DNA of 43,479 nt, taken from an uncultured Myxococcales bacterium (GTDB lineage Bacteria > Myxococcota_A > Polyangia > Polyangiales > Polyangiaceae). The notes under the pieces were generated by a model. The model did not search any database. It worked only from the letters and a program-made list of their open reading frames with translations, and was not told the DNA's origin. A program made the translations under genes and the position numbers. Positions 31,128 to 35,297 of the stretch are shown here, piece by piece (positions within the stretch are counted from its first letter, which is position 1; the number at the start of each line of letters is the position of its first letter). The stretch is taken from positions 1-43,479 of the forward strand of contig CALFNG010000312.1 in assembly GCA_937902985.1 (NCBI GenBank). The letters run 5' to 3'.

Positions 31128-31140
31128 ACGGTAGGGCAGC

Positions 31141-31215
31141 GATCAACGTGCCGACGATCAACGTGCCGCCGATCAACGTGCCGACGATCAACGTGCCGAC
31201 GATCAACGTGCCCAG
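31141..31215. repeat. five tandem copies of a 15-bp unit between convergent genes
   Basis: GATCAACGTGCCGAC is repeated at 31141, 31156, 31171, 31186 and 31201 with period exactly 15. Copy 2 has GCC for GAC, and copy 5 ends CAG. The last copy overlaps the 3' end of the CheW-like gene and supplies its TGA. There are no spacers, so this is a minisatellite and not a CRISPR array. Confidence 0.97.
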
Positions 31216-31616
31216 CGCGTCGGCCGGGCGCTCGCCTGTACGCGGGCGTAGATCGCGGGGAGATCGATGACCTGCGCTCGCTGTCCTTCGTGGTCGATGA
31301 CATCGATCCGCCCGGGCACCGCGTCGAACGTTCCGCTGCGAACGACCTCGCCTCCGACGAGGCCGAGGAGCTCGCCCGCGTGCTGGCACACGATCATCTC
31401 GCGGCGCGCGGAGCCGATCGCGATGACTGGCACGATCGTGCCCTCGTAGGGAGCGATTCCGAGCAGCTCGGGAGGAGCAGCGGGTATCGGAGTCACGCGC
31501 GGAGGCGGCGCGATGCGCAAGGCCACGGACGCCGGCACGAAGCAGAGCGCGCCGTCGACCCGCACGAGGATGCCGCCTCGACGCGCCGCCACCCGCAGCG
31601 ACGAGCCCGGCATCAC
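31203..31616 (-). CDS. minimal CheW-like coupling protein
   Basis: A 137-residue protein with a CheW/SH3-like fold signature. GGILVRVDGALCFVPASVAL is the first sheet. TPIPAAPPELLGIAPYEGTI then VPVIAIG matches the P-APP-LLG-I---G--VPV-- motif of CheW domains, and ELLGLVGGEVV follows with a late IDVIDHEGQRAQVIDLPAIY. CheW links chemoreceptors to a CheA kinase. Neither is present in the window. It is shorter than typical CheW by 15-30 residues. The start is GTG 31616, directly after the TAG of the response-regulator gene, or ATG 31613. It is the last gene of the three-gene operon. Confidence 0.82.
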   Translation of the reverse strand: MMPGSSLRVAARRGGILVRVDGALCFVPASVALRIAPPPRVTPIPAAPPELLGIAPYEGTIVPVIAIGSARREMIVCQHAGELLGLVGGEVVRSGTFDAVPGRIDVIDHEGQRAQVIDLPAIYARVQASARPTRWAR

Positions 31617-32918
31617 CTACGACGCGCGCCGGCGCACGAGCCGGGCTTCGAGCAGCTGAAAGAGCACCTTGCAGGCGTCGAAGCTCGACATGTGGCTCTG
31701 TTCGATCACCGCGCGCACCGTGCGCTTGCCGTCGATCATGTCGAGCAGTCTGCGCTCGTCTCTCGTGAGACGCTTGAGGGCCGCGCCTTCGATGGCCACC
31801 GGATCGGGCTGGAGCATCGACTCGAAGCTGCCGAGCCCGGCCTCGACGACGCGCCACTCGTCGACCCGCCGGAAGCCCTCCATGACCACCGAGGCGACGG
31901 GCAGACCGAGCTCGGCGCTCTCGGCGAGCGCGGGCAGCGCCTCGAGGCGGAACTCGAACCGGCCCGCGGGCCACCGCAGCACTTCGTAAACGAGCTCGCT
32001 CGACTGGCGCGCCAGCCCGTCGCGCAGCTGCTCGCGAGTCACGTGTCCGGAGTCGACGAGGAGATCGCCTATCAGCTTGCGCCCGCCGGTCAGGGCCTCT
32101 TCTTTCGGCATCGAGTTGCGCGCGCCGCTCTCGGGCGGCCGCGCGGGGCTGGGTGGGTGATCGCGAAGCAGGCGATCGATGTCCTCGGTGGTCACGAGGC
32201 CGTGCTCGACGAAGTAGCGGCCCAGGCGAAACTCGCGGCCCGCGCCTCGCGCTTGCACCAGATCGATGAGGCCGCGGCGCACGGACATGGTGACTTCGCT
32301 CCGGCCGTCGGTGACGACGAGGAGCCCGGTGCGGGCCTCGATCTGCAGGAGCTGGAGGACCGCGCCGATCGGGATGACCGCGATGTCGCCCTGGAGCGCG
32401 ATGGGGGGCCGCCCTTCGGCGGGCGTCGAACGGAGCGGGTCGACAACCGTCTCCGCGGGCTCGGCGATGCGGTGGCGATCGGAGCGCTCCCTCTGCCGCC
32501 ACTCGGCCGATCTCCGGATCGCGTTCTCGATGACCGCGACGAGCGCCTGCGCCTCGAACGGCTTGGTGATCGCGTCGATCGCGCCGGTCTGCTGCACGAA
32601 GTGCTCCCGAATTCGATCGGACTTCGCGCTCATCAACACGACGGGCGTGTCGCGGAGCAGCTCGTCGTGACGGATGGCGCGACAGAGCTGGAACCCGTTC
32701 ATTCGCGGCATGACGAAGTCGACGAGCACGACGTCGATCTTCTCGGTCTCGTCGGGCTCGTTGCCCTCTCGCGTGGCGCGGGCCGCGTGCAGCAGCTTCT
32801 CGAGGGCCGCTTGCCCGTCGACCGCCTCGATCGCCTCGAAGCCGTGCTTCACGAGCACCGCGCTCACGACCTTCCGGATCGTGGGGCTATCGTCGACAAC
32901 CAGGACGCGCGTGGTCAT
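31617..32918 (-). CDS. response regulator with C-terminal DUF4388 (PATAN-like) region
   Basis: The 433-residue protein has a receiver domain with an intact acidic pocket (VVDDSPTIRKVV, Asp9/Asp10), phospho-acceptor Asp67 in VLVDFVMPRMNGFQL, switch Ser in VVLMSAKSD and Lys in AITKPFEAQ. After a linker comes a DUF4388-type region: IAVIPIGAVLQLLQIEARTG then LLVVTD and ...VRRGLIDLVQA. A second helical part (KLIGDLLVDSGHVTREQLRD, ending SFDACKVLFQLLEARLV) resembles PATAN/FrzS-associated output domains. No DNA-binding domain is present, so output is probably by protein contact. The start MTTRVLVVDDS at 32918 is the usual receiver start; ATG 32948 is possible. It is 61 nt after the FrzS-like gene and immediately before the CheW-like gene. 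Confidence 0.88.
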   Translation of the reverse strand: MTTRVLVVDDSPTIRKVVSAVLVKHGFEAIEAVDGQAALEKLLHAARATREGNEPDETEKIDVVLVDFVMPRMNGFQLCRAIRHDELLRDTPVVLMSAKSDRIREHFVQQTGAIDAITKPFEAQALVAVIENAIRRSAEWRQRERSDRHRIAEPAETVVDPLRSTPAEGRPPIALQGDIAVIPIGAVLQLLQIEARTGLLVVTDGRSEVTMSVRRGLIDLVQARGAGREFRLGRYFVEHGLVTTEDIDRLLRDHPPSPARPPESGARNSMPKEEALTGGRKLIGDLLVDSGHVTREQLRDGLARQSSELVYEVLRWPAGRFEFRLEALPALAESAELGLPVASVVMEGFRRVDEWRVVEAGLGSFESMLQPDPVAIEGAALKRLTRDERRLLDMIDGKRTVRAVIEQSHMSSFDACKVLFQLLEARLVRRRAS

Positions 32919-32979
32919 ACGCGGGGTCGAGAGGCCGGATTCACCCATTGATCTGTCGGCTGCGGAGCGGTCGCGGGCG

Positions 32980-35205
32980 CTAGAGCGTTCGGCCTTCGGT
33001 ATCCTCGATCTGCGCAAGGACCACCGCCAGGGCGTCCTTCGCGCGCTCGAGCGACTGCCGGTCCGCGTCCCACTTCGCAGCGGCCTTGCTGGCCTTCGAC
33101 GACTCGATCTCGAGCTTGTCTTTGATCTGGGCCAGGGATTCGCGAGCGCTCGCGAGCTCGGCCTCGGCGGCCGTGAGTCGATCGTCGGTGATCGCGACCT
33201 TGGCGGTCAGGGCCTCGTGAGCGCTCTGGATCTCGGCGAGGCGCTTCTCGAGATCGGCGATGCTCGCGGCGGCGGTCGCGGCGGCGGCCGCCTTCGCGTC
33301 GCGCAGCAACCCCAGCTCGCCCCGCAGCGCCGAGGCGTCCATGTCGAGCTTCGCGAGCTTGTCGTTCGCCTCGCCGACCTCGCGAAGAGCCTTGGCTTCG
33401 AACGCGGCGATGCGCGCGTCGCGATCGTTCTCGAGTGTGGCGATCTTCTCGGCGTTCTCCGCGCGAAGGGCCTCGGCAGCGCGGTCCACGCGCAGCTCGC
33501 TGTCGGCGCGCACGTCGGCGAGCCGTTCTTCGGATTGCTTCGTCACCGCGGCGATGTCGGCGAAGAGTCGCTCCTCGACGTCGCGGACCTTCTGCGCCCC
33601 TTCGCCGCGAGCGCGCTCGAGCTCGTCTTGCTGGGTCTTGCGGAGCAGGGTCAGCGCGCCGTCGTGCTCGCGCCGGAGCTGCCCGCTCTGCTCGCTCAGG
33701 GCGTCACGCTTGGACTGTTCGAGCTGCTCACGCGCGACCTTGAGCGCCGCGTCGTGCTCGCGAGAGGTCTCTGCGAGATCGCTCCGGCGGCGGGACTCGG
33801 CTTCATCGAGCTCGCGGGCCTGTTCCGCGCGTTCGTTGGCGAGCACCTGGTCGAGCTCGGCGCGGGCCGATCCGAGCTTGATCTCGTTCGCGGCGCGCTC
33901 CTCGGCGGTCTTCGTACGGAGCTCGTTGAGCTGCCGATCCTTGGCCTCGTTCTCCGAGCGCATCTTCTCGACGCGCGCTCGAAAATCGTCGCTGGCCTTC
34001 TTCGCGAGATCCCGATCGGTCGCGAGCGACTCGTTCTTCTCGCGCGTCTCTGCGACCTCGCGCTCGAGGGTCAGCAGCCGCTCGTCGTGGTCGGATTTGG
34101 AGCGTTCGAGCGCGAGCCCGCGATCCTGCGACTCGACGATCTCCTTGTCTTTCTTCGAGAGCTGCTCTTTTAGGGCGAGGATCTCCTTGTCTTTCTTGTT
34201 GAGGCCCTCGCGTAGATCGAGGAACTCGCGGCTCGAGATGCCGCCCGTCTTCGCGCCCGCCGCGAGACGCGCCCTCAGCTCTTCGATCTCGCGGACGAGC
34301 CGTTCGGCCTCGCCGGCCTCGATGCGGAGCTTCTCGATCTCGCGCCGCGACTCTTCGATCTCGCGGTCGTTGGCGCCCATCCGCTCCTTGGCGCGGGCGA
34401 GCTCTTCGCGAACGCGATCGTGCTCGGCGACGTCGATGCCGGGCATGATGGCAGTCGGCCGGACCGAGCGAGGCGCGATCGAACCGCGCGACGGGGCCGG
34501 CGTGATCGAACGCGGCGGCGCGGCGGGCTCGGGTGAGGACATCGAGCCGTTGTGCAGCGCTCGCGGCGCGTCGGCGTGAGCGGTCCCCGGCGAGGGAGAT
34601 GCTTCGGGCCCGGTGAGCCGCCCGAAGGCCGACTCTGCGAACGCGTCGACGTCGGCGTCGACGGTCTCGGCCTTGCGCGGCCTGGCGTCGTCGATTGCCT
34701 CGACGACCTCGGACGCCGACACGACCATGGTCTGCGAGTCGTCGTCGTCGAGCAGGTAGTCGGTCGCGCCGACCTCGATCTCGTCGTCGATGACGATCGC
34801 GCCATCGGCGTCGACGTGCGGGGCGGCGGGCGTGAGCGCGACGAACCCGCGAATGTGCTGCAGGAGCTCGCCGAAGGCCACGGGCTTGTGCACGTAATCT
34901 TCGGCGCGAGTCCGCAGCTTCTTGTGCTGCTCGAACGTCTCGTCGCTCGACTCGCTCGACATGATGATGAGCGGAACGTCTTTGAGGTTCGGATCCTTCT
35001 TCAGCTTGTTGCAGACGGAGAAGCCGTTCATTCGCGGCAACTCGATCGAGAGCAGAATGAGATCGGGCCGTTCCGACGCGGCTTGCTGCAAGCCCACGTT
35101 GCCGTCATCCACCACGATGGTGGTGCATCCGAGGTGACCGAGCTCGTTTCTCAGCTCTCCAGCGAAGGCGACGTCGCTCTCGAATACGAGAACTTTGGTG
35201 GGCAT
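32980..35205 (-). CDS. FrzS/AglZ-like pseudo-receiver and coiled-coil protein
   Basis: The 741-residue protein starts with a receiver-like fold (1-120) in which the phospho-acceptor Asp is replaced by Ser53 (LILLSIELPRMNG). The acidic pair is altered to Glu9-Ser10-Asp11, while Ser83 and Lys107 are kept. Residues about 130-270 are disordered and acidic/Pro-rich. Residues 275-735 form a long heptad-rich coiled coil rich in Glu, Lys, Ala and Arg. This is the FrzS/AglZ architecture known from Myxococcus xanthus, where such proteins localise at poles or motility sites. The receiver also shares the QHKKL-x-AEDYVHKPV stretch that recalls FrzS. It is the first gene of the operon and has a good promoter upstream. 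An ordinary coiled-coil scaffold protein is the main alternative. Confidence 0.85.
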   Translation of the reverse strand: MPTKVLVFESDVAFAGELRNELGHLGCTTIVVDDGNVGLQQAASERPDLILLSIELPRMNGFSVCNKLKKDPNLKDVPLIIMSSESSDETFEQHKKLRTRAEDYVHKPVAFGELLQHIRGFVALTPAAPHVDADGAIVIDDEIEVGATDYLLDDDDSQTMVVSASEVVEAIDDARPRKAETVDADVDAFAESAFGRLTGPEASPSPGTAHADAPRALHNGSMSSPEPAAPPRSITPAPSRGSIAPRSVRPTAIMPGIDVAEHDRVREELARAKERMGANDREIEESRREIEKLRIEAGEAERLVREIEELRARLAAGAKTGGISSREFLDLREGLNKKDKEILALKEQLSKKDKEIVESQDRGLALERSKSDHDERLLTLEREVAETREKNESLATDRDLAKKASDDFRARVEKMRSENEAKDRQLNELRTKTAEERAANEIKLGSARAELDQVLANERAEQARELDEAESRRRSDLAETSREHDAALKVAREQLEQSKRDALSEQSGQLRREHDGALTLLRKTQQDELERARGEGAQKVRDVEERLFADIAAVTKQSEERLADVRADSELRVDRAAEALRAENAEKIATLENDRDARIAAFEAKALREVGEANDKLAKLDMDASALRGELGLLRDAKAAAAATAAASIADLEKRLAEIQSAHEALTAKVAITDDRLTAAEAELASARESLAQIKDKLEIESSKASKAAAKWDADRQSLERAKDALAVVLAQIEDTEGRTL

Positions 35206-35267
35206 GGTTCCTGACGGCGGAACGTCAACTCACAGCGCGCAAAACGCTGGAGATTCTCCGCGGTTCG

Positions 35268-35297
35268 AGGATAGGCCCGCGCAAGAAACAGTGTCAA
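35268..35297 (-). promoter_or_regulatory. candidate sigma-70-type promoter of the FrzS-like operon
   Basis: On the minus strand TTGACA (35297-35292) and TATCCT (35273-35268) are separated by 18 bp. Transcription would start near 35261, about 55 nt before the ATG at 35205. This is the best -35/-10 pair in the window. The rest of the 215-bp gap between this gene and the DHH phosphoesterase gene shows nothing recognisable. Confidence 0.6.

Follow-up and report, generated by a model that had tools for sequence, protein, structure and literature searches.

The locus described here belongs to a PATAN-type family of chemosensory units and has been split; a FrzS-like gene is its neighbour, and it is not a new three-part system. 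It lies in a 43,479 nt stretch of DNA (the window; contig C312) from an uncultured Myxococcales bacterium of the Polyangiaceae, and comprises genes for a FrzS-like protein, a response regulator with a DUF4388 (PATAN) domain and a CheW adaptor. The regulator and CheW are almost certainly the front half of a chemosensory unit, the other half of which is found on a second contig (C551) of the same genome. The most likely reading of the locus, in our analysis, is a PATAN-type chemosensory pathway that would control type IV pili at the pole and have the FrzS-like protein as its polar scaffold.

All three genes are carried on the minus strand and are arranged in the order FrzS-like gene, regulator, cheW, with intergenic gaps of 61 nt and 0–3 nt. 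A promoter-like site of the sigma-70-like type (TTGACA-18-TATCCT, minus strand, nt 35297–35268) stands 62 nt upstream of the FrzS-like start codon, and shows 10/12 matches; one such site was found, compared with 0.2 expected in shuffled sequences. Both this site and the single co-directional run of genes had been reported in the preliminary description, and both were recovered. At the opposite end of the locus, a tandem repeat of 4.9 copies of a 15-bp unit (CGATCAACGTGCCGA; nt 31140–31212; TRF score 139) occupies the 3' end of cheW, contains the cheW stop codon, and lies between two convergent genes, on the side of cheW where relatives carry genes for a methyl-accepting chemotaxis protein (MCP) and CheA. 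It is the sole array of that unit in the 8.3-Mb assembly, which rules out a genome-wide element, and the nearest relative (L108) lacks it.

The regulator gene (nt 31617–32918, minus strand) starts at ATG 32918, or at an in-frame ATG at 32948, and ends at 31617, giving a protein of 433 aa. Pfam searches returned Response_reg (6.5e-22) and DUF4388 (85 bits, 5e-24), with no DNA-binding domain found. The receiver carries D9/D10/D67/S97/K119, so that the phospho-acceptor Asp67 is intact, and D9, D10, D67 and K119 are invariant among 16 orthologues. The earlier view of this protein as an intact receiver with no DNA-binding output agrees with both the Pfam results and the residues. DUF4388 is presumably the PATAN domain of PatA-like regulators (those of the cyanobacterial Pix/Tax systems), as given by InterPro. 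The Pfam DUF4388 profile has matches in Synechococcus elongatus. A look-up of PATAN in a Lyngbya locus (L185) gave a lone CheY only. An AlphaFold model of the regulator was obtained (pLDDT 85.5), and a structure search aimed at DUF4388 gave, among the matches listed, receiver domains only. Literature searches found no paper combining DUF4388 with CheW, and for DUF4388 alone they returned a single, unrelated paper. SopA was considered as a DUF4388 partner and rejected, as the SopA paper makes no mention of DUF4388 and reports two domains without similarity to characterised domains.

The cheW gene (nt 31203–31616, minus strand) starts at GTG 31616 or ATG 31613, ends at 31203, and specifies a protein of 136–137 aa. 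It was previously described as very short, or minimal, and the protein is indeed small, but it is not truncated. The Pfam CheW match (35.9 bits, cut-off 23.5) spans only the first half, while the AlphaFold model (mean pLDDT 92) shows a complete CheW fold, and the best 18 Foldseek matches to this model are all CheW proteins or the P5 domain of CheA (E 5e-7 to 3e-4). Orthologues occupy the same position in relatives, and together with the model they rule out a decayed gene. The conserved NLRG motif is absent from the window CheW, which has APYEG instead (alignment A2). In the same alignment, the motif is replaced throughout the Polyangia CheW family, and NLRG or NVRG is seen only in the distant relatives L124 and L056, which suggests altered contacts with MCP or CheA.

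The FrzS-like gene (nt 32980–35205, minus strand; ATG 35205, stop 32980) encodes a protein of 741 aa, with an N-terminal pseudo-receiver (residues 1–122), a Pro/Ala-rich linker (about 180–260) and a long predicted coiled coil (about 260–741). The last of these is indicated by composition and periodicity: there is no proline past residue 300, the hydrophobic period is 3.5 residues, and about 35–50% of residues are charged or polar. The receiver matches Pfam Response_reg (residues 5–119, 63 bits, 3.3e-17) and has Ser53 in the phospho-Asp position, confirming the loss of the phospho-acceptor noted earlier, as well as Ser10 within the acidic pair. Its best match in the PDB is the receiver of FrzS (2gkg, E 2e-21), the next, non-FrzS family following at 9e-13; FrzS is thereby the closest characterised relative among PDB families. 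In the reciprocal direction, the FrzS receiver retrieved the window gene from its own genome and the counterparts in relatives, mostly as one copy per genome and in most of the Polyangia genomes searched. Ser10, Ser53, His94 and Tyr104 of the window protein correspond to Ser10, Ala53, His92 and Tyr102 of FrzS. Across 26 orthologues, position 53 is always S, A, T or C, so the phospho-Asp is replaced throughout, no Asp occurs at the second acidic position, and His94 and Tyr104 are invariant (26/26). The output-face residues His92 and Tyr102 of FrzS are required for S-motility (PMC1974792). Because the match is reciprocal and the functional His and Tyr are conserved, the protein is, on sequence evidence, a FrzS-type protein and the single-copy Polyangia orthologue of FrzS, and the affinity to FrzS proposed in the preliminary description is upheld.

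Neighbours of the regulator were searched in 189 genomes of the phylum. It adjoins CheW in five of them (G007, G052, G072, G103 and G116), and a weak CheW stands beside it in a sixth (G160). Directly downstream of the pair, all six carry a gene for a short protein with an MCP signalling domain, followed by one for CheA with Hpt and HATPase domains. A scan of named genomes returned the identical order, regulator–CheW–MCP–CheA, at twelve loci from Labilithrix, Polyangiaceae and other myxobacteria; in one of these (L120) a few kilobases separate CheW from the MCP. The Polyangia MCPs are about 254–309 aa long (an example of such a short soluble protein is L080:8111-8905) and have neither a membrane segment nor a sensor domain; their highest 19-residue hydropathy window is 1.5, compared with 2.8 for the MCP of a Nitrospirae locus (L149). 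No CheR or CheB gene is present within the Polyangia MCP–CheA cluster. In more distant bacteria, REC-DUF4388 proteins head full che operons, as in L149, where the order is REC-DUF4388, CheY, PBP-like protein, CheW, HAMP-MCP, CheA-REC, two CheW and REC. Comparison of gene order places the window regulator and CheW as the opening pair of a predicted ancestral unit consisting of REC-DUF4388, CheW, a short soluble MCP and CheA. This unit may already be listed, without a name, in the study of myxobacterial chemosensory systems by Sharma (2018). A different setting of the regulator was seen in other families of the order (L053, L055, L062, L065), where a REC-DUF4388 gene is found directly behind a giant gene (1632–1844 aa) and not beside CheW; the giant gene of L053, the one scanned, is rich in TPR repeats.

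The four genes, intact as a group in relatives, are not in one operon in the lineage of the window, where they are divided between CheW and MCP. Orthologous MCP (264 aa) and CheA (688 aa) genes are found on C551, overlapping by 4 bases, and this CheA shares 53% identity with that of G007. They are followed by GNAT and TPR-peptidase genes, as is cheA in L109 and others. C312 therefore carries the left half (FrzS-like, regulator, CheW) and C551 the right half (MCP, CheA, GNAT, TPR), with the break point exactly between CheW and MCP, and each of the Pix/Tax-type components, CheW in the window and MCP and CheA on C551, has its orthologue in the operon of relatives. An assembly of 563 contigs and a tandem repeat at the junction would fit an intact operon with mis-joined contigs, but on neither contig does the break fall at an end, and the junctions recur in an independently assembled relative. 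In this nearest relative (L108/G189, MAG BP9.bin63), the regulator of which is 66–70% identical to that of the window, the regulator–CheW contig lacks MCP and CheA and continues into the same genes as the window, while contig C367 of G189 is colinear with C551 and has no regulator or CheW in the part fetched. An assembly artefact, for which the probability is very small, was rejected on the basis of these matching junctions, and since two independent assemblies show them the split is taken to be a rearrangement of the lineage.

These results bear directly on the system of exactly three parts, with neither CheA nor receptor, that was originally envisaged as a self-standing polarity module with an orphan CheW plugging into an unrelated chemosensory array. 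The co-directional, tightly spaced genes with their promoter are compatible with such a module, as are the adjacency of the FrzS-like gene and the regulator in G037, without CheW, and the presence of further CheW/CheA clusters in the genome (on C307, C282 and C301). Against this, the regulator–CheW pair of relatives is followed by a dedicated MCP and CheA, and the orthologues of these two stand together, intact, on C551. The nearest relative, L108, also retains an amidohydrolase gene between the FrzS-like gene and the regulator, so that the tight three-gene layout is recent and has so far been seen only in the window. The three-part module is accordingly improbable. Of the idea that CheW serves a distant array, one part survives, in that the kinase is encoded elsewhere, but the array is not an unrelated one, since the MCP and CheA of C551 are the dedicated partners. 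A CheW gene without a nearby cheA can thus signal a split operon instead of an orphan adaptor.

The association of the FrzS-like gene with the split chemosensory unit is a separate matter. Conservation of the neighbourhood in relatives holds for the regulator–CheW pair but, for adjacency to the FrzS-like gene, only within one clade. When 44 regulators were placed in a tree, the loci that have a FrzS-like gene as neighbour fell in a single supported clade, made up of 8 linked loci, 1 unlinked locus and 3 of unknown state, and the history of linkage requires two changes in all, with one inferred gain and no second origin. The tree indicates that the linkage is old and has been kept, yet goes back to one event. 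In most genomes of the family the FrzS-like gene is conserved but far from the regulator, and in most linked relatives an opposite-strand amidohydrolase gene lies between the two, so they do not form one operon there; L108 still has this gene, and the window has lost it. In G037 the FrzS-like gene adjoins the regulator, but the retrieved stretch around them holds no CheW gene and the genome has no closely orthologous CheA, and at the G033 locus (L082, G033:C259) the FrzS-like gene, a CheW-like gene, MCP and CheA are present while the regulator is missing. With one inferred gain and absence from most of the family, the linkage is possibly neutral: a functionally unrelated FrzS-like gene would have landed beside the che genes once, and loss of the amidohydrolase would mimic one operon. 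That reading competes only with the FrzS part of the interpretation, and not with the split che operon. We regard it as a real though somewhat doubtful possibility, as the linkage has been retained across several genera despite gene loss and rearrangement (G037, G033, L108 and the window), and both halves of the locus point to pili or polarity by independent literature.

In the proposed pathway, the cytosolic MCP and CheW would hold CheA, which would autophosphorylate on its Hpt histidine and then phosphorylate the regulator at Asp67. This modification would alter the binding partner of the DUF4388/PATAN domain, which is probably a component of the machinery for type IV pili or polarity. The FrzS-like protein, which would not be switchable by phosphorylation, may use its coiled coil to stay at the pole and recruit pilus-activating machinery (SgmX-type) there, and both halves of the locus would thus act on one polar machine. 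Homology makes such a role, in polarity or in pili, plausible. PATAN-CheY regulators are present in all three tax operons of Synechocystis, and PixE is reported to bind PilB1 (PMC7690835, PMC5812497); STRING shows co-occurrence of PATAN proteins with SgmX (PMC11580455), and PATAN proteins are encoded near mglA/mglB (PMC4316618); and FrzS recruits SgmX to the pole, activating pili (PMC11580455, PMC12632262). The genome of the window itself encodes PilB (794 bits, cut-off 676) and an MglA-like GTPase of 197 aa (G000:C510; L200:1291-1884).

The soluble MCP and the lack of CheR and CheB in the cluster could also suit a chemosensory system with a non-pilus output, for example exopolysaccharide or development as an alternative cellular function; systems of the ACF class exist (PMC3447774), and FrzS of M. 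xanthus has been reported to affect exopolysaccharide (PMC3158785). Such an output is judged rather unlikely, given that cyanobacterial PATAN regulators are tied to type IV pili (PMC7690835) and that context and co-occurrence link PATAN regulators to SgmX and MglA (PMC11580455, PMC4316618). The probable output is type IV pili or polarity, and the joint claim of a split che unit with that output carries a similar, reasonably good likelihood. That the FrzS-like protein shares the che pathway has a slightly better than even chance. Direct contact, in which it would keep at the leading pole either the CheW/CheA array or the PATAN regulator in its phosphorylated form, is a speculative and rather improbable extension; if true, the kinase would act on FrzS–SgmX pilus activation without the MglA/RomR switch.

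The locus joins two separate stories, that of PATAN regulators acting on the cyanobacterial pilus motor and that of FrzS as a polar pilus beacon in Myxococcus. The clade in which a FrzS-like gene stands beside a complete small che operon with a PATAN output offers a test ground for the path from chemosensory kinase to polar pili.

Among known systems, the cyanobacterial Pix/Tax1 and Tax3 (Pil) systems comprise PATAN-CheY, CheY, CheW, MCP and CheA. The unit described here is similar in that a PATAN/DUF4388 response regulator, a receiver without a DNA-binding domain, is encoded with CheW, MCP and CheA. It differs in that REC precedes DUF4388, the MCP is short, soluble and without a sensor domain, the unit has no second CheY, CheA has no trailing REC, and the unit is split in the genome of the window. 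The Pil-Chp system of Pseudomonas is a chemosensory operon acting on polar type IV pili via response regulators (PMC10519157). The present unit shares the chemosensory operon with response regulators, its pilus output being proposed only. PilG and PilH of Pil-Chp are single receivers without PATAN and the MCP PilJ is membrane-bound, whereas here the regulator carries PATAN and the MCP is soluble. AglZ of Myxococcus xanthus, described in the literature as a motility protein of the response-regulator type with MglA as an interaction partner (PMC4316618), is likened to the FrzS-like protein from that description. The resemblance to FrzS of M. xanthus extends to a pseudo-receiver without phospho-Asp, in which Ser10 is retained and Ala53 is exchanged for Ser, to the functional His and Tyr, and to a long C-terminal coiled coil (predicted here). 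The receivers share 37–40% identity, Ser83 of the window protein is a Gly in FrzS, and, unlike FrzS, the window gene adjoins a che operon with a PATAN regulator.
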